From positions 101,118 to 165,117 of the forward strand of contig CANGHK010000003.1 in assembly GCA_947453625.1 (NCBI GenBank): DNA of 64,000 nucleotides, read 5' to 3'. Source of the stretch: Burkholderiales bacterium (GTDB taxonomy: Bacteria > Pseudomonadota > Gammaproteobacteria > Burkholderiales > Burkholderiaceae_C). The position numbers were made by a program, and so were the translations under genes. Positions 32,434 through 49,457 of this stretch are shown in pieces (position 1 is the stretch's first letter; each line of letters begins with the position of its first letter). The notes under the pieces were generated by a model. That model was not told where the DNA came from and ran no database searches. It saw only the letters and a list, made by a program, of their open reading frames with translations.

Positions 32434-33255
32434 TCAGTGCTCCCCGTCCAGATCGTCCAGCGTCGGCACGGCGACCCAGCGCTGACGCGCCGGATCGCCC
32501 GGGTTCGCCGCCAGCGCCTCGATCGTGAAAGCATGCTCGAACACCTCGACCAGCTGTTGCCGGACCGCGCAGTCGGCCGGCGCCCCGTCGGCCACCAACC
32601 GGCCCGCGGCCATCACCAGCAGGCGGTCGGCGGCCAGCGCCAAATTAAGGTCGTGCAGCACCACCGCCACCGCCGCGCCGCTGCGGGCACGCCGGCGCAG
32701 GCTGCGCACCAGCGCCCGTTGGTGCGGTGCGTCGAGGTGGGTGGTGGGCTCGTCGAGCAGCAACACCCCCGCGCCGACCGCCAGCGCGCGCGCCAGCAGC
32801 ACGCGCTGGCGCTCGCCGCCCGACAGCGAACTCAGTCGGCGCCCGGCCAGCGCGCTGCATTCGGTCTCGGCCATCGCCGCCTGAACCGCCTGCTCGTCGG
32901 TGCGGGACGGCGCGCCGAACAGGCCATGGCGCGGCAGGCGGCCAAGGCGCACCACATCGGCCACCGCGATCTCGCCCTCGGCCTCGCCCTGCTGCGACAG
33001 CCAGGCCAGGCGCTGGGCGCGCTCGCGCGCCGGCCAATCGGCCAGCGGCCGGCCGGCCAGGCGCACGCTGCCGGCGTCGGCCTGGCGCAAGCCGGCCAGC
33101 AGCGACAGCAGGCTGCTCTTGCCAGCCCCGTTCGGACCGACCAGCGCGACCCATTGGCCGGCGGCCAGGGCCAGGTCGACGCCGTCGACCAGTGGCCGGC
33201 CAGCCAGCCGCAGCACCAGGCCCTGGGCCTGCAGCGCGGGCGCGGTCATGACCAC
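32434..33255 (-). CDS. btuD: ABC transporter ATP-binding protein (cobalamin/heme type)
   Basis: VGPNGAGKSSLLSLLAGL, LSSLSGGERQRVLLARAL, LLLDEPTTHLD; operon with FecCD permease and BtuF/BtuB-like genes. Confidence 0.88.
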   Translation of the reverse strand: MVMTAPALQAQGLVLRLAGRPLVDGVDLALAAGQWVALVGPNGAGKSSLLSLLAGLRQADAGSVRLAGRPLADWPARERAQRLAWLSQQGEAEGEIAVADVVRLGRLPRHGLFGAPSRTDEQAVQAAMAETECSALAGRRLSSLSGGERQRVLLARALAVGAGVLLLDEPTTHLDAPHQRALVRSLRRRARSGAAVAVVLHDLNLALAADRLLVMAAGRLVADGAPADCAVRQQLVEVFEHAFTIEALAANPGDPARQRWVAVPTLDDLDGEH

Positions 33256-33259
33256 TCGT

Positions 33260-34306
33260 TCATGCCGGCGCGCTCTGCCGCCGCAGCAACACCAGCAGAT
33301 AGACCCCGCCGAGCAGCGCAGTCAACACCCCGACCGGCAGTTCCTGGGGCGCAATGACGCTGCGCGCCAGCAGGTCGGCGGCCAGCAGCAAGACGCCGCC
33401 TGCCGCAGCCGACAAGGACAGCAGCGCGCCATGCGTCACCACCACCCAGCGCCGCACCAGGTGAGGCGCGGCCAGGCCGACAAAAGCCACCAGCCCGGCC
33501 TGCGACACCGCCGCACCGGTGGCCAGTGCCATCACCACCACCAGCAGCAGGCGCACCCGCGGCAGTTGCAAGCCCAGGCTGGCGGCGCTGGCCTCGCCCA
33601 GCACCAGGGCATCGAGGACGCGGGCAAAGCGCAAGGCCAGCGGCAGCACCGCCACCAACGCGCCGACCAGCAGGCCCACGCTGTCCCAGCCCAGAAAACC
33701 GGTGCTGCCAAGCAGGAAGGCCTGGCGGCCGCGCAGCGCCTCGGGCGACAACATCAGCAGCAAGTCGGAGGCCGCGCCCATCAGCACACCCACCACCACG
33801 CCGCACAGCAGCAGCCGCACCGGACGCGCCGCGCCGCCGGCCAGCAGCAGGGTCAGCCCGACCCCCGCCAAGGCGCCGGCAAAGGCCGCCCCGACCAGCC
33901 CGAGGCGCATCAGCCCACTCACCGCAGCCAGTCCGAGGGAGGCCCCGCCCAGCCCGCCAAACCCAGCCACTCCGCCGCCCGCCAGCACCATCACGACCCC
34001 CAGGCCGGCGCCTGAAGCCGACCCGAGCAGATAGGGGTCGGCCAGCGGGTTGCGGAACAGGCCTTGTGCCAGCGCGCCGGCCAGCCCCAGCAAGGCGCCG
34101 GCGGCAAGCGCACCCAGGCTGCGCGGCGCCCGGATCTGCCAGACCAGCTCGCCCTCGTCGGCCCAGGCCAGGCTGAAACCTTCGCTGCCCGCAGCCAGGC
34201 CAACCAGCAGCAAGAGCAATGCCGCGGCGACCAGCAGCACACCCAGGCCCAGCGGCTTGCGCCAGGGCATCAGCACGGTCGGCTTCAAGTCCAGCGCGGC
34301 GCTCAT
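33260..34306 (-). CDS. btuC: FecCD/BtuC family ABC transporter permease
   Basis: IRAPRSLGALAAGALLGLAGALAQGLFRNPLADPYLLGSASGAGLG ... AFVGLAAPHLVRRWV ... ELPVGVLTALLGGVYLLVLL. Confidence 0.9.
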   Translation of the reverse strand: MSAALDLKPTVLMPWRKPLGLGVLLVAAALLLLLVGLAAGSEGFSLAWADEGELVWQIRAPRSLGALAAGALLGLAGALAQGLFRNPLADPYLLGSASGAGLGVVMVLAGGGVAGFGGLGGASLGLAAVSGLMRLGLVGAAFAGALAGVGLTLLLAGGAARPVRLLLCGVVVGVLMGAASDLLLMLSPEALRGRQAFLLGSTGFLGWDSVGLLVGALVAVLPLALRFARVLDALVLGEASAASLGLQLPRVRLLLVVVMALATGAAVSQAGLVAFVGLAAPHLVRRWVVVTHGALLSLSAAAGGVLLLAADLLARSVIAPQELPVGVLTALLGGVYLLVLLRRQSAPA

Positions 34307-35271
34307 GGTGAACCCGTAGCCGGTTTGGCCAGCGTCGCCAGATTCACCAGACAGTCGGCGATCAGGTCCGCCGCTTCGGCCAAACGCGGCCCGGGGCGCA
34401 CCAGGGTGTCGAAGCGCGATTCGGCAAAGCCGCAGCTGCGGCCTTGGCGCAGCGCGGCGATCGCCGACCAACCCGGCCGGCGAGCCATCTCGGTCAAATC
34501 GTGGGCCGAGGCCATCACCAGGCCGGGTTGCGCGCGCACCACGAACTCGGGGTTGAGCTTGGGGAACGGGCCCAGCGCGCCCGGCACCACATTGCCCAGG
34601 CCCAGCCGCGCCAGCAGCGCACCGACGAAACTGGCTTCGCCCGCGGCATAGGGCGCCGGGCTGACCTCGAAATACACCCGCTGGCCGCGCAGCGCCGGCG
34701 GCACGCGGGCGGCGGCCGCGCTGATGCGGCGGTCGATCTGGGCCCACAGCGCGTCACCCTGCCCAGGCAAACCCAAGGCCAGCGCCAGCACCTGCAGCAC
34801 ATGGCGGGTGTCGGGCAGCGACTGGGCTTCGAGCGCCAGCACCGTCAGCCCCAAACCTTCGAGCCTGGCGGTGACGCGGGTCGACACCGCCGCCAGCACC
34901 AGGTCGGGCTTGAGCCTGACGATGGCCTCGACCTGCGTGTCCTCCAGCCCGCCCAGCTTGGGCAGGGCCGCCGCCGACGCAGGCCAATTCGAGAAGCGGT
35001 CGGTGCCGACGAGACGGCCGCAGGCCTGCAGCGCGCAGACCGACTCGGTCAGCGAGGGCAAGAGCGAGACGATGCGCTGCGGCGGGCGGTCGAAGCGGAC
35101 CGGACGACCGCGGTCGTCGGTCACCGTGACGGTGGCCGCGGTCGCTGTCCCGATGACGGCCGCGGCCATCGCCACCAGCGGCGCCAGCATCAGCCCGCCC
35201 AGCAGCGCCGGCAGCGTTCGGCCGCGGCCCCGCCAGCCGCTGCGCAGGCAGGTCGACACCAGCTTGCGCAC
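34303..35271 (-). CDS. btuF: cobalamin-type periplasmic binding protein
   Basis: QRIVSLLPSLTESVCALQACGRLVGTDRFSNWPASAAALPKLGGLEDTQVEAIVRLKPDLVL. Confidence 0.88.
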   Translation of the reverse strand: MRKLVSTCLRSGWRGRGRTLPALLGGLMLAPLVAMAAAVIGTATAATVTVTDDRGRPVRFDRPPQRIVSLLPSLTESVCALQACGRLVGTDRFSNWPASAAALPKLGGLEDTQVEAIVRLKPDLVLAAVSTRVTARLEGLGLTVLALEAQSLPDTRHVLQVLALALGLPGQGDALWAQIDRRISAAAARVPPALRGQRVYFEVSPAPYAAGEASFVGALLARLGLGNVVPGALGPFPKLNPEFVVRAQPGLVMASAHDLTEMARRPGWSAIAALRQGRSCGFAESRFDTLVRPGPRLAEAADLIADCLVNLATLAKPATGSP

Positions 35272-35274
35272 TGC

Positions 35275-37149
35275 TCAGAGCCGCCAGCGCAGGCCGCCAA
35301 ACACACCGCGCGGCGGCTGCTTGTAGCCGGTGGCCGTCTGGTAGTGCCTGTCGCCCAGGTTCTCGATGCGGGCGAACCACTGCAGGCTGCCGCTCTGGTC
35401 CCACTGAGCGGTCATATCGGCCACGCCGTAGGCCGGCAAATTGGCACCGGCGCTGTCGGGCCGATCGCCGACGTAGCGTGCCGCCAGCCCGACGCGCCAG
35501 CCCGCGCCCAGGTCTTGCGACAGCGCGGCCGAAGCCAGCGCCTTGCTGCGGCGCAGACGCTGCGTGCCGGTAACCGCGTCGACCGGGTCTTGCGTTGTCA
35601 GCCCGGCACGCAGGTCGGCCGACCCGACGCGGCCTGCGTACGACAACTCCAGGCCGCGGTTGCGGGTGCGCGCCAGGTTGCCGAAGGCCTGGAGGGTGGT
35701 GTCGTACTCCAGTTCCTGCTCGACCCGGGTCTGGAACAGCGTGGCACGCAGCCGCTGGCCGGCCACCGCCCATTGCAGCCCCAGTTCGGCAGAGCGCGCC
35801 AGTTCGGGCTGCAGGGCCGGGTTGCCGTAGTACGGTGCATACAGGTAGCCCAGCGGCGGCGCGCTGAAGGCATTGCCCAGGCTTGCGATCAGCTTCCAGG
35901 CCGGTGCCACCTGCCAGCCCCAGCCCAGGCTGCCGCTGGCCTTGGCGCCTGTGCCGCCAGTGTGGTCCTGGCGCAGGTTGAGCGCCAAGTCATGCGGGCC
36001 CAGCTTGGCCTGCAGGCCGCCGAACAGCGCCGTCACGCTCCGCGCGTGGGCGTATACGCCACCAAAGCCGTCGTCGGCATCGATACGCTGGCGCTGGTGG
36101 TCCAGCCCGGCAGTCAGCGTGGTGGCCGACGACAGCGCCAGGGTGTTGACCCAGTTCAAGGCAGCGACCTGGGTCTGGTACTGGCCGGTGTAGCCATAGT
36201 CGCCGGTTTCGACATAGCGCGCGTCGTCACGCTGACTGGACAGGCTGAGCGCGCTGCGCCAGGCGGCGCTGAACTGGTCGGCGCTGCTCAGGTGGACCAG
36301 GTCCTTGCGGGTGCGGCTGGTCTGCACATCGGCGGGCGTGGCGAAGGCCGAGTCGTAGTCGAGTTGCCCGTCGCTGTGCACCCAGCCGAAACCCAGGCGG
36401 TGGCCGTCGGCCAGCGAGTGCGACAGGTTGAAAGCCGCGCTGGTGTTGCGGTAGCCGTCGCGGTCCGGGTTGGCGGCCGGGACCTGCTGGGAATCTACCG
36501 CCGAAAATCCGTGATCGGACTCGCGCGACACGCCCAGCGACAGCGCTGTGGCGCCCAGCGTGGCCGAGCCCTGCGCCGCGCCATGGACGAAACCGCGCGA
36601 GCCGGCCTCCAGGCGCACGCTGGCCTGCGGCGCAGCGCTGGCTTGGCGGGTGAAGACCTGGATTACGCCACCCACCGCACCGCTGCCGTAGAGCGCCGAG
36701 ACGTTGCCCCGCACGATCTCGATGTGGTCGATCTGGTCCAGCATCAGGTGCTCGATGCCGACCAGGCCGGTCGCGTCCTGGCGCGACATGACCATGCCGT
36801 CGACCAGCACCAACACCTGCCGGGTGGGCGCGCCGCGCAGGAACAGCGAGGTGACAGTGCCGCGTCCACCATTGCTGGCGAACTGCACACCGGCCTCGGC
36901 CGCCAGCAGCGCGGGCAGGTCCACCGCCTGCGAACGCTCGATATCACCGCGCGTCAGCAGCGTGGTGTGCGGCAAGGCGTCGGTGAGGAACTGCGGGCCG
37001 CGCGAGGCGGTCACCACCACCGGGGCTTGCTCGAATTCGGCACTGAGCGCCGGCCCGCAGGCCAGGCCCAGCAACAGCGGCGCTGCAGCGCGCGCACCGA
37101 TCAATGCAGCGGCCCGAGGAGGCCGCCCGGAAACCAGGGAAGGAGTCAT
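35275..37149 (-). CDS. btuB: TonB-dependent outer membrane cobalamin receptor
   Basis: Plug motifs VVTASRGPQFLTDALPHTTLLTRGDIERSQAVDLPALLAAEAGVQF..GGRGTVTSLFLRG..VLVDGM and a C-terminal barrel ending WRL; downstream of cobalamin riboswitch. Confidence 0.9.
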   Translation of the reverse strand: MTPSLVSGRPPRAAALIGARAAAPLLLGLACGPALSAEFEQAPVVVTASRGPQFLTDALPHTTLLTRGDIERSQAVDLPALLAAEAGVQFASNGGRGTVTSLFLRGAPTRQVLVLVDGMVMSRQDATGLVGIEHLMLDQIDHIEIVRGNVSALYGSGAVGGVIQVFTRQASAAPQASVRLEAGSRGFVHGAAQGSATLGATALSLGVSRESDHGFSAVDSQQVPAANPDRDGYRNTSAAFNLSHSLADGHRLGFGWVHSDGQLDYDSAFATPADVQTSRTRKDLVHLSSADQFSAAWRSALSLSSQRDDARYVETGDYGYTGQYQTQVAALNWVNTLALSSATTLTAGLDHQRQRIDADDGFGGVYAHARSVTALFGGLQAKLGPHDLALNLRQDHTGGTGAKASGSLGWGWQVAPAWKLIASLGNAFSAPPLGYLYAPYYGNPALQPELARSAELGLQWAVAGQRLRATLFQTRVEQELEYDTTLQAFGNLARTRNRGLELSYAGRVGSADLRAGLTTQDPVDAVTGTQRLRRSKALASAALSQDLGAGWRVGLAARYVGDRPDSAGANLPAYGVADMTAQWDQSGSLQWFARIENLGDRHYQTATGYKQPPRGVFGGLRWRL

Positions 37150-37234
37150 GGATGTCAAGCAACAAGATACGCCTGCCCCAGCGTCCCCGCAGGTGCAGAC
37201 CGATCGCGCGCGCCGAACCCGACACGCGCCCCTT

Positions 37235-37415
37235 GTTGGCCGGTATCCGGGCTGGCGGAAACAACCCCTGTGGCCTTCCCGACCCCTTGCGGGGCCAGTG
37301 GCGTCTGACACAGGAGCGGAGACTGAGGGCGCCAGGCGCCTGCAGTCTCGTCCGCTTACCGTTGCGGGGGCAGCGCAGGTTGGACCATCCTCCGTGGGGC
37401 GATGATCTTCCTGCT
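37235..37415 (-). ncRNA. cobalamin (AdoCbl) riboswitch in the btuB leader
   Basis: Reverse strand contains GCTGCCCCCGCAACGGTAAGCGGACGAGACTG...CTGTGTCAGACGCCACTGGCCCC...GGGTCGGGAAGGCC...CAGCCCGGATACCGGCC, matching conserved cobalamin riboswitch elements (GCCACTG, GGGAAGGC, B12-box-like). Confidence 0.88.
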
Positions 37416-37546
37416 TCCCGTTTAACCCGACCGCAGTTGACATACGGCCGGAGCACCAACGGGCCGATGCTACCGCATTGCCGGCGCCGATACGGCGGGC
37501 CGGCCGCCTACAATCGACAGTCACACAGGAGAGGCGGCGGCTGGCC

Positions 37547-45323: not shown

Positions 45324-46547
45324 ATGTCCTCTGACGCCGCCCCTCCCCCACACGGCACCTTCGATGCCATCGTGCTGGGCGCCGGCGCGGCCGGGCTGTT
45401 CTGCGCCGGCATCGCCGGCCAGCGCGGCCTGAAGGTGCTGTTGATCGACCATGCCGACAAGGTGGCCGAGAAGATCCGCATCTCGGGCGGCGGGCGCTGC
45501 AACTTCACCAACCGCGACACCACGCCGGCGCAATTTCTCTCGTCCAACCCCGACTACTGCCGCTCGGCGCTGGCGCGCTACACGCCGGCCGACTTCATCG
45601 CACTGCTGCAGCGCCATGGCATCGCCTTCCATGAGAAGCACAAGGGCCAGCTGTTCTGCGACGGCTCGGCCGAGCAGATCATCACGATGCTGCTGGCCGA
45701 ATGCCGCAGCGGCGGCGTGCTGCACCGCCAGCCCTGCGCGGTGAGCGCGGTGCGCGCGCGCGACGGCGGCTTCGACCTCGACACCGACCAGGGCCCGGTG
45801 CACGGCCGGCAGTTGGTGGTGGCCACCGGCGGGCTGTCCATCCCCAAGATCGGCGCCACCGATTTCGGCCACCGGCTGGCGCGCCAGTTTGGCCACCGCA
45901 TCGTCGAGCCGCGCCCCGCGCTGGTGCCGCTGACCTTCGACGCCGGCGCCTGGGCGCCGTTCGTGCCACTGGCCGGTGCGTCGCTGGGCGTCGACATCGC
46001 CAGCACCGGGGGCCGGCCCAAGGGCAGTTTCCGCGAGGACTTGCTGTTCACCCACCGTGGCCTGAGCGGCCCGGCGGTGCTGCAGATCTCGAGCTACTGG
46101 CGGCCCGGCGAGGCCTTGACGATCGACCTGCTGCCGGGTCAGGACGCCGAGGCCTGGTTGCGCGAGGCCAAGCAGAGCTCGCGCCGCCAACTCGGCAATG
46201 CGCTGGCCGGCCTGCTGCCACAACGCCTGGCCGAAGCCTGGCTGGCGCGGCTGGCGCTGGACGCCGCCAAGCCCCTGGCGGAACTGCGCGACCGCGACCT
46301 GCAGCGTCTGGCCGAATCGCTGACGCGCTGGGCCGTCACGCCCAGCGGCACCGAGGGCTACCGCAAGGCCGAAGTCACGGCCGGCGGGATCGACACGCGC
46401 GAGCTGGACTCGCGCAGCATGGCCAGCAAGCGCCAGCCCGGCCTGCACTTCATCGGCGAGGTGGTGGACGTCACCGGCTGGCTGGGCGGCTACAACTTCC
46501 AATGGGCCTGGGCCAGCGCGGCGGCCTGCGCGGGGGCGCTGGCGTAG
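45324..46547 (+). CDS. NAD(P)/FAD-dependent oxidoreductase (HI0933/BaiN family)
   Basis: FDAIVLGAGAAGLFCAGIAGQRGLKVLLIDHADKVAEKIRISGGGRCNFTNRD ... GGYNFQWAWASA. Confidence 0.93.
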   Translation: MSSDAAPPPHGTFDAIVLGAGAAGLFCAGIAGQRGLKVLLIDHADKVAEKIRISGGGRCNFTNRDTTPAQFLSSNPDYCRSALARYTPADFIALLQRHGIAFHEKHKGQLFCDGSAEQIITMLLAECRSGGVLHRQPCAVSAVRARDGGFDLDTDQGPVHGRQLVVATGGLSIPKIGATDFGHRLARQFGHRIVEPRPALVPLTFDAGAWAPFVPLAGASLGVDIASTGGRPKGSFREDLLFTHRGLSGPAVLQISSYWRPGEALTIDLLPGQDAEAWLREAKQSSRRQLGNALAGLLPQRLAEAWLARLALDAAKPLAELRDRDLQRLAESLTRWAVTPSGTEGYRKAEVTAGGIDTRELDSRSMASKRQPGLHFIGEVVDVTGWLGGYNFQWAWASAAACAGALA

Positions 46548-46672
46548 GCATGCGCGGTGCCGAAGTGCGTGGTGAAAGTTAGCCTCAAGTCTTGTCGGTC
46601 GCCACGACCCTGGCGTGGGCCTGGAGGCAGGGTTGCACGACTGGGTCAGCTGCCAGACAAGGACAAATCAAC

Positions 46673-47080
46673 TTGGACACCTTGACGCCCTCCGAACGAA
46701 GCCAGCGCATGTCCTTGATACGCTCGGCCGACACCAAACCCGAGCGCTTGGTGCGGCAATGGCTGCACGGGCTGGGCTACCGATTTCGGCTGCACGAGAA
46801 GCGCCTGCCTGGACACCCGGACATTGTGTTCGCCAAGCGTCGGAAGGTGATCTTCGTTCATGGATGCTTTTGGCATCGGCATAATCGTTGCGCCCTAGCG
46901 CGCATGCCCAAGTCAGGCGGATCCTTTTGGCTTGAGAAGTTGGAGGGGAACCGACTCCGGGACGCCCGAAACCGGCGCGCGCTCACTCGGTTGGGATGGC
47001 GCAGCCTCGTGATTTGGGAGTGTGAGCTTCACGACCCCATGCGGGTGATGTTTCGGTCAATTGCGTTCCTAGAGGGGTAG
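46673..47080 (+). CDS. vsr: very short patch repair (Vsr) endonuclease
   Basis: LTPSERSQRMSLIRSADTKPERLVRQWLHGLGYRFRLHEKRLPGHPDIVFAKRRKVIFVHGCFWHRHNRCALARMPKS; start likely TTG 46673 (or ATG 46709). Confidence 0.95.
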   Translation: MDTLTPSERSQRMSLIRSADTKPERLVRQWLHGLGYRFRLHEKRLPGHPDIVFAKRRKVIFVHGCFWHRHNRCALARMPKSGGSFWLEKLEGNRLRDARNRRALTRLGWRSLVIWECELHDPMRVMFRSIAFLEG

Positions 47081-47086
47081 ATCCAC

Positions 47087-48337
47087 ATGCCATTGAAGTC
47101 GATAGAACTTTTCGCGGGCGCGGGCGGGCTGGCTTTGGGTGTCACGCTGGCCGGTTTCCGCAGTCAAGGCGTGGTCGAATGGGACAAGTGGGCATGCGAC
47201 ACGATCCGACAGAACCAGCGGCGCGGCTATCCGGCGGTGACCGACTGGCCGCTGTTCGAGGGCGACGTTCGTCACTGGGTTCGCGATCTGGACATGGCGG
47301 CACTGGAAGGCCAGATCGACCTCGTGGCCGGCGGACCGCCCTGCCAACCGTTCTCCATGGGTGGCAAGCACCAGGCCAACCTCGATTCGCGCGACATGTT
47401 TCCGGTGACGGTCGATGTAATCCGCCGTCTCAAGCCACGCGCGTTCATTGTCGAAAACGTCAAGGGCCTGACACGGGCCAGTTTCAGCAACTACTTCGAG
47501 TACATCCAGGAGCAACTGTCTTTCCCTGAATTACAGCGCAGGGTTGACGAGAGTTGGATCGATCACCACCACCGCCTCCAGCAGTTCAAGACTTCCCGCC
47601 AACACGGTGGAACGGGCCTGTCGTACCGTTTGGTCGTGACCTTGGTAAATGCAGCCAACTACGGTGTGCCACAGAAACGCGAGCGCGTCTTCGTCGTGGG
47701 ATTTCGGTCGGACATCGACGCGCGCTGGTCGTTTCCGCATGCGACCCACTCATTGGACGCGTTGATTCACGATCAATGGGTCAGCGGCGAGTACTGGGAC
47801 CGCCACGCCATCGCCAGGGCTCAGCAGCCACCGGTGCCGGCCAACCTGCCGCCCCTGATCGCCCGCCTGCGCGGCCTGGGCCTACTGCCAACCCGAGCGC
47901 CGTGGCAGTCCGTGCGTGACGCGCTAGCGGGCCTACCCGAGCCAGGCCTCGGTGGCGACAGGGTATTGAATCATCGGCTGCAGGCCGGAGCCAAGATCTA
48001 CCCAGGACACACCGGCAGCCCGCTCGACCTGCCAGCCAAGACGCTGAAGGCGGGCGGACATGGCGTGCCTGGCGGTGAAAACATGATGGTTCGGACGGAC
48101 GGCAGCGTGCGCTACTTCAGCGTCCGTGAATCAGCGCGGCTGCAGACCTTCCCAGACGGCTATGAATTGCATGGCGCATGGGGCGAGGCGATGCGCCAAC
48201 TCGGCAATGCCGTGCCGGTTCGACTGGCGCAGGTGGTGGCCTCCAGCGTGGCGGAACATCTGGTAATGGCCGATCATCGGCGCGCGGCAATGGACAGCGG
48301 CTGGCGCAGTCCCAAGGCCGCGGAGTTGGCGCTGTGA
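47087..48337 (+). CDS. DNA (cytosine-5-)-methyltransferase of a type II R-M system
   Basis: IELFAGAGGLALGVTLAGF, GGPPCQPFSMGGKHQANLDSRD, ENVKGLTR, YGVPQKRERVFVVG, RESARLQTFPDGY, QLGNAVPVRLAQ. Confidence 0.97.
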   Translation: MPLKSIELFAGAGGLALGVTLAGFRSQGVVEWDKWACDTIRQNQRRGYPAVTDWPLFEGDVRHWVRDLDMAALEGQIDLVAGGPPCQPFSMGGKHQANLDSRDMFPVTVDVIRRLKPRAFIVENVKGLTRASFSNYFEYIQEQLSFPELQRRVDESWIDHHHRLQQFKTSRQHGGTGLSYRLVVTLVNAANYGVPQKRERVFVVGFRSDIDARWSFPHATHSLDALIHDQWVSGEYWDRHAIARAQQPPVPANLPPLIARLRGLGLLPTRAPWQSVRDALAGLPEPGLGGDRVLNHRLQAGAKIYPGHTGSPLDLPAKTLKAGGHGVPGGENMMVRTDGSVRYFSVRESARLQTFPDGYELHGAWGEAMRQLGNAVPVRLAQVVASSVAEHLVMADHRRAAMDSGWRSPKAAELAL

Positions 48338-49029
48338 CGGATGCCGTACCCTACAACCCGCTCGACAAGACCAACTTGGGCGCCAGTGTTGCGGATGCGC
48401 TACTGGGGCGAAAGCCAAGGCAACTGCATGGCTTGAAGCGATTCGACGGTGCTGGCATCTATGCGCTGTACTACCAAGGCACGTTTGTGCCCTACCAGCG
48501 TCTATCCATATTGAACCAGGGCGATGACCCGCAGGCACCGATCTACATCGGCAAGGCCATACCCGAGGGCGGCCGCAAGGGAGCCAGCGGTATCGAGGCT
48601 GGCCCCACCCGGGCGCTCTACCGCCGACTCAAGGAGCACGCCGAGAGCATCCAGGCCACCGCCAACCTGAACGTTGCCGATTTTGTTTGTCGCTTCCTGA
48701 CGGTCGATGACATCTGGATACCGCTCGGTGAATCCTTGCTGATTGCCAAGTTTTCGCCTCTCTGGAACCTGACGATCGACGGCTTTGGCAACCACGACCC
48801 CGGCAAGGGGCGCTACAAGGGTCTGGCTCCACGATGGGACATGTTGCATCCGGGTCGTGAGTGGGCTGCTCGCTGCGAGCCGCGGGAGGAAACCGCCGAG
48901 CAGATCGCCGACGATGTCCAGTCCCGCCTGGCACAGGAGCCTTCGCTGGTGAGAACCCGGTTCCATGCCGAGCAACGCAAGGGCAGCTACCAGGTGAACG
49001 CCGACGCTGACGACGCGCGCACGGCCTGA
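48334..49029 (+). CDS. Eco29kI-family (GIY-YIG) type II restriction endonuclease
   Basis: YNPLDKTNLGASVADALLGRKP, GAGIYALYYQGTFVPYQ...PIYIGKAIPEGGRKG, VDDIWIPLGESLLIAKFSPLWNLTIDGFGNHDPGKGRYKG; GTG start overlaps the MTase stop by 4 nt. Confidence 0.93.
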   Translation: MTDAVPYNPLDKTNLGASVADALLGRKPRQLHGLKRFDGAGIYALYYQGTFVPYQRLSILNQGDDPQAPIYIGKAIPEGGRKGASGIEAGPTRALYRRLKEHAESIQATANLNVADFVCRFLTVDDIWIPLGESLLIAKFSPLWNLTIDGFGNHDPGKGRYKGLAPRWDMLHPGREWAARCEPREETAEQIADDVQSRLAQEPSLVRTRFHAEQRKGSYQVNADADDARTA

Positions 49030-49244
49030 TCTGCTGTCCAGTTGTGGCTCAGAGGCACATCGCGGCGAGATGCTGGCCAGATCACCTAAAACCGAGCTAG
49101 AATCCCCGCTTTGCTGGCAAACCGCGCGTCGATTCTCCAGCCTGGTATATCCGGAATGCATCTCCTGCTGATCGCCTCCGGGCGTTCCACAGGCAGGCTG
49201 AGTCAAGAACACCGAGCGCAAACCCTTTAGGACCTTCTAGTTAA

Positions 49245-49457
49245 ATGACCACGATTCGCGTCAAGGAAAACGAGCCTTTCGATGTAGCACTGCGCCGCTT
49301 CAAGCGCACGATCGAGAAGCTGGGCCTGCTCACCGACCTGCGCGCGCGCGAGTTCTACGAGAAGCCCACGGCCGAGCGCAAGCGCAAGAAGGCCGCGGCC
49401 GTCAAGCGCCACTACAAGCGCGTGCGCAGTATGCAACTGCCCAAGAAGCTGTTCTAA
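49245..49457 (+). CDS. rpsU: 30S ribosomal protein S21
   Basis: [59 protein letters not shown]. Confidence 0.98.

Follow-up and report, generated by a model that had tools for sequence, protein, structure and literature searches.

The stretch of Burkholderiales DNA analysed here (64,000 nt, referred to as the window) very probably carries a horizontally acquired anti-phage defence cassette, a Type IIP restriction-modification (R-M) system of the Eco29kI kind, in which the genes for a Vsr protein, a methyltransferase (MTase) and a nuclease follow each other in the order V-M-R, CCGCGG is the sequence recognized, and the Vsr repairs the sites of the system.

The three genes lie on the forward strand. 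The first one, vsr (46673-47080; 135 aa, TTG start), encodes a DNA mismatch (very short patch repair) endonuclease, and its end is separated by 6 nt from a gene for a C5-cytosine DNA methyltransferase (47087-48337; 416 aa; PF00145), whose stop overlaps in the sequence GTGA (48334-48337) with the GTG start of the gene for an Eco29kI-family GIY-YIG restriction endonuclease (48334-49029; 231 aa; PF09517). None of the three frames is interrupted by a stop codon, and a plausible Shine-Dalgarno sequence can be read about 8-11 nt upstream of every start, such as AAGGA at 46659-46663 (+), 9 nt upstream of the vsr TTG, or GGAG at 48322-48325 (+), located within the MTase gene and 8 nt upstream of the nuclease GTG. 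This arrangement makes it possible that translation of the nuclease is coupled to that of the MTase.

The family assignments of the three proteins are far beyond chance, and those obtained with Pfam, NCBIfam and PADLOC agree, NCBIfam having no model for the nuclease. The Vsr matches PF03852 (1e-29, 102.6 bits), TIGR00632 (137.7 bits; curated cut-off 97.85) and the solved chain 1CW0 of E. coli Vsr (1.6e-28); the MTase matches PF00145 (3.7e-52, 178 bits); and the nuclease matches PF09517, RE_Eco29kI (1.7e-66, 223.5 bits; curated cut-off 30.8), as well as the solved R.Eco29kI chain 3MX4 (3.6e-37). An earlier note, made from the letters of the window, had placed three genes on the same strand with this 6-nt and GTGA spacing and had named them Vsr, C5-MTase and Eco29kI-type GIY-YIG nuclease; the coordinates have been confirmed, and the identities are upheld by the profile searches. 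It had also remarked that no transposase, integrase or controller (C) protein was visible, and indeed no open reading frame for any of them was recognized from the oxidoreductase gene on the left to rpsU on the right. The cassette is consequently different from controller-protein R-M systems, which hold a C gene in the operon.

The cassette is an insertion between the stop codon of a HI0933/TIGR00275 flavoprotein oxidoreductase gene (45324-46547) and the promoter-like element of rpsU (49245-49457). This is deduced from the fact that 15 genomes of the same genus exhibit an empty site, in which the oxidoreductase gene is directly followed by rpsU with 142-273 nt from stop to ATG, and from the foreign codon composition of the cassette, whose coding GC3 is 0.74-0.76, while the genes for YbiB, the oxidoreductase and YqeY reach 0.91-0.94 and the short rpsU 0.87. 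The inserted island spans approximately positions 46548-49085, starting right behind the oxidoreductase stop and ending shortly ahead of the -10-like TAGAAT of rpsU, and the conserved region upstream of rpsU picks up again at about 49085-49100. Around the island, the search for terminal repeats or transposon ends yielded only short repeats of the kind expected by chance, and no recombinase was seen. The synteny comparison thus bears out the bare insertion into a core locus proposed in the earlier note, and acquisition by horizontal transfer is held with the same high confidence as the overall reading of which it forms a part.

The cassette is mobile. Cassettes ordered V-M-R are also present on a Paraburkholderia plasmid and in Burkholderia phage Milagro, as well as in the MAG loci L012, L016 and L017 and in other Burkholderiales genomes. 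The phage Milagro genome (L023) contains a complete V-M-R cassette at 33221-35539, 60-64% identical to that of the window. Both the Milagro cassette and the one on the plasmid of Paraburkholderia aromaticivorans (L018) match that of the window in gene content and order, the genes being closely spaced or overlapping, and their products are 57-60% (Vsr), 64% (MTase) and 63% (nuclease) identical to those encoded in the window. They differ in their surroundings, as the first resides in the genome of a phage that encodes a tyrosine integrase and the second on a plasmid, next to a gene for an integrase, whereas the cassette of the window stands bare beside rpsU. On the other hand, M-R pairs with no linked Vsr have been found in a Halomonas plasmid, a Halomonas phage and a Corynebacterium plasmid, and G009, G030, G049, G055, G248, G264 and G345 are genomes with an M-R pair and no Vsr detected anywhere. 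One of them, G009, belongs to the same genus and holds an M-R pair 72% identical to that of the window at a contig end, with its oxidoreductase gene on a separate contig. Since M-R pairs occur in genomes devoid of any Vsr, this protein is an optional but favoured companion of the pair, not a required one: in the Burkholderiales sample, a Vsr was found in 7 of the 10 other nuclease-bearing genomes versus 68 of the remaining 388 (Fisher p 0.0005, kinship between genomes being ignored).

Two further loci, one from the Rhizobium leguminosarum plasmid pR132502 (L102:4031-6380) and another from a Methylocaldum plasmid (L104:3998-6366), encode a Vsr and an MTase of the same families, 57-59% identical. 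Their third gene codes for a divergent 252-aa GIY-YIG protein that reaches 23 and 30 bits against the Eco29kI Pfam cut-off of 30.8, and it appears that the nuclease has been replaced or has strongly diverged within the same V-M-R frame.

Regarding the recognition site, the target of the cassette is probably CCGCGG, with cleavage at CCGC^GG, a proposal that comparison with characterized relatives supports well, if indirectly, but does not prove. The alignment with R.Eco29kI of pECO29 reveals that the nuclease retains the equivalents of all six residues Y49, Y76, R104, H108, E142 and N154, and mutation of any of them except Y76 impairs R.Eco29kI (PMC1952068). Moreover, 48 of the 56 columns that are identical among Eco29kI, NgoAIII and DraR1 are retained in the nuclease of the window. 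NgoAIII has been assigned to CCGCGG (PMC6789123), and passages of the DraI paper report that DraR1 cuts this sequence (PMC10855626), so that the divergent nucleases Eco29kI and DraR1 share it as their cut site.

In C5-MTases such as this one, target recognition resides between motifs VIII and IX, a region that corresponds here to residues 204-343 (47696-48115, + strand). This region is 47% identical to that of M.Eco29kI and 49% to that of M.NgoAIII, in line with the remainder of the protein (49% and 48% identity, respectively). It keeps the block GHTGS..D.P.K..KAG.HGVPGGEN throughout, and with unrelated C5-methyltransferases encoded in the vicinity of other vsr genes, many of the alignments are broken in the recognition region. 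The MTase gene adjoins and overlaps that of the nuclease, and the two enzymes would share their recognition specificity if they form, as proposed, a Type II R-M system with an m5C methyltransferase. CCGCGG is favoured as the target both by the retention of the nuclease residues and by the MTase recognition region, whose conservation equals that of the core. The six residues, the 48 columns and the conserved recognition region also lend support to the earlier note, which had arrived at the same sequence. The MTase and the nuclease might instead have drifted to another site, as the window nuclease is only about 42% identical to the experimentally characterized R.Eco29kI; however, this is highly improbable given that the MTase recognition region, including the block mentioned above, is conserved to the same extent as the core versus M.Eco29kI and M.NgoAIII, and that CCGCGG is common to enzymes as divergent as Eco29kI and DraR1, besides being the site assigned to NgoAIII.

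The genome contains 6,225 CCGCGG sites, 0.63 of the reversed-sequence control. The range in the same genus is 0.20-0.82, and avoidance of CCGCGG, with a density inside that range, is uninformative as evidence for the site. The counts of CTGCGG, considered as a footprint of deamination and Vsr, revealed no distinct signal versus same-genus genomes. As there is neither clear avoidance nor a CTGCGG signal, the genome bears no footprint of long action, a circumstance that fits equally a recent arrival and full protection of the sites. With 6,225 host sites, the nuclease could be active only alongside a functional methyltransferase. The lack of host-wide CCGCGG avoidance would also suit a cassette that is inactive or decaying baggage, but this is unlikely, considering that the three frames are intact, that their Shine-Dalgarno sequences are plausible and every catalytic residue checked has been kept, and that an active nuclease beside a dead MTase would be lethal in a host with that many sites. 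In three other genomes of the genus (G005, G008 and G009), CCGCGG is rare, at 0.20-0.28 of the reversed control versus 0.46-0.82 in the others. Among these three, an Eco29kI-type system was detected in G009 only, and the rarity of the sequence is possibly a trace of past exposure.

The Vsr of the cassette retains, in the alignment, the residues E25, D51, F67, W68, H69, H71, W86 and D97 and the zinc cysteines. According to the roles known for E. coli Vsr, E25, D51 and H69 are catalytic, and F67, W68 and W86 form the wedge. The position of T63 is occupied by Val, which is likewise the case in 28 of the 31 Vsr proteins outside the Eco29kI-linked group. E. coli Vsr (V.EcoKDcm) belongs to the same family and has the same catalytic, wedge and zinc residues, but it is paired with Dcm, which targets CCWGG, and falls in a different Vsr group. 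In a first tree of 46 Vsr proteins, a single branch divides those encoded beside an Eco29kI-type MTase from the others (1 change versus a shuffled mean of 12.9), and the support of this branch, which sets all RM-linked Vsr apart from every other Vsr, is only 52/74. In a second tree, built without the rows L015 and L069 owing to their very long branches, the group of Vsr from Eco29kI operons, including that of the window, is separated with a support of 97/97 from the Dcm-type group, a name given after the first tree was seen to E. coli Vsr, the Vsr of the EcoRII-type operon of phage KL3 and their kin. The window Vsr therefore lies outside the Dcm type.

No second Vsr was found in this genome, that of the cassette being the only one detected. 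The only other C5-MTase detected, encoded on C61 (L001:1435-2694), has another methyltransferase model as its best-scoring match. Its gene adjoins another that resembles an iron-sulfur glycolate-oxidase subunit, and in the 3.5 kb read there, no Vsr was found alongside and no nuclease was recognized. The separation from the Dcm type in the tree, the presence of a sole Vsr and the differing MTase on C61 indirectly support that the Vsr serves the CCGCGG methyltransferase of its own cassette. The idea in the earlier note that it is tuned to CCGCGG and not to the Dcm site gains from the same evidence, whereas a broad T:G specificity keeps some likelihood. In fact, there is a sizeable minority chance that the M-R pair is as described and the Vsr is a generalist acting on T:G in many contexts. 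V.NgoAXIV and V.NgoAXIII from Neisseria gonorrhoeae also act outside the Dcm pairing and, in contrast to what is proposed for the window Vsr, are multispecific, V.NgoAXIII accepting every context; V.NgoAXIV was assayed on CTGCGG/CCGCGG mismatches (PMC6116569). Next to the gonococcal CCGCGG system (locus L021), no Vsr was detected. Vsr proteins linked to other MTases share with that of the window some residues of the loop from C73 to W86, and the clade-enriched LAR.PKS sequence in this loop is not proposed as a specificity determinant, as parts of it occur elsewhere. Against a generalist enzyme, the Vsr from Eco29kI operons cluster together and away from the Dcm type, which suggests a long co-inheritance with one methyltransferase family.

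In the reading preferred here, the MTase would set m5C in CCGCGG, at the second C by homology with M.Eco29kI, for which this is the methylated base (PMC3039593), and would thereby protect the 6,225 host sites, while unmodified CCGCGG in incoming DNA would be cut by the GIY-YIG nuclease. Deamination of m5C would generate a T:G mismatch, with CTGCGG opposite CCGCGG, and the linked Vsr would nick next to the mismatched T, leading to its replacement by C and to the retention of the host sites. An additional role of the Vsr as a stabilizer of the cassette, in which the loss of methylation would be followed by Vsr breaks at mismatched unmethylated CCGCGG, so that the trio would be lost less readily than an M-R pair, is conceivable by analogy but improbable; a solitary MTase and an unlinked Vsr of Caulobacter have been proposed to act in such a manner (PMC12907096).

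Among the closest known systems, Eco29kI from the E. coli plasmid pECO29 (L022) shares with the window the six GIY-YIG residues, an m5C MTase with a conserved recognition region and overlapping genes, but it exhibits the order R then M, lacks a Vsr, and is 42% (R) and 47% (M) identical. Passages of the DraI paper describe Vsr "V elements" in some of the 310 CCGCGG m5C systems surveyed, which, like the window, bring together nuclease, m5C MTase and Vsr; in these passages, V elements are one among several gene arrangements, and neither a Vsr phylogeny nor a mobile-element context is given (PMC10855626). The V-M-R trio is hence an already described kind and the cassette an ordinary, well-preserved example of it, as both these V elements and the assay of V.NgoAXIV had been previously reported, and its basic biology holds nothing new. 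Its value resides in that a V-M-R cassette with a matching empty site offers a clean case for comparison. Judging from the Vsr tree, lineages of this protein seem to track methyltransferase families, and the trio would be a convenient test bed if Vsr specificity proved predictable from the linked MTase, the Vsr-less M-R pairs of close relatives being available for contrast.

Two RNA elements have also been observed in the window. The region upstream of rpsU holds a structured leader (49113-49224, + strand) conserved in the genus, in which GCGYGTCGATTCYCC pairs with GGAACACCGAGCGC and the apical part is variable. In the alignment, 94.6% of the cells pair (25-43% in slid controls), and four pairs have changed on both sides. 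No Rfam match was obtained even at E 1, and a covariance model of the leader, under strict filters, identified 1 of 200 Burkholderiales genomes, namely its own; it looks restricted to this lineage and is possibly an S21 autoregulatory leader. The second element is a cobalamin riboswitch at 37221-37472 on the reverse strand (71.9 bits).
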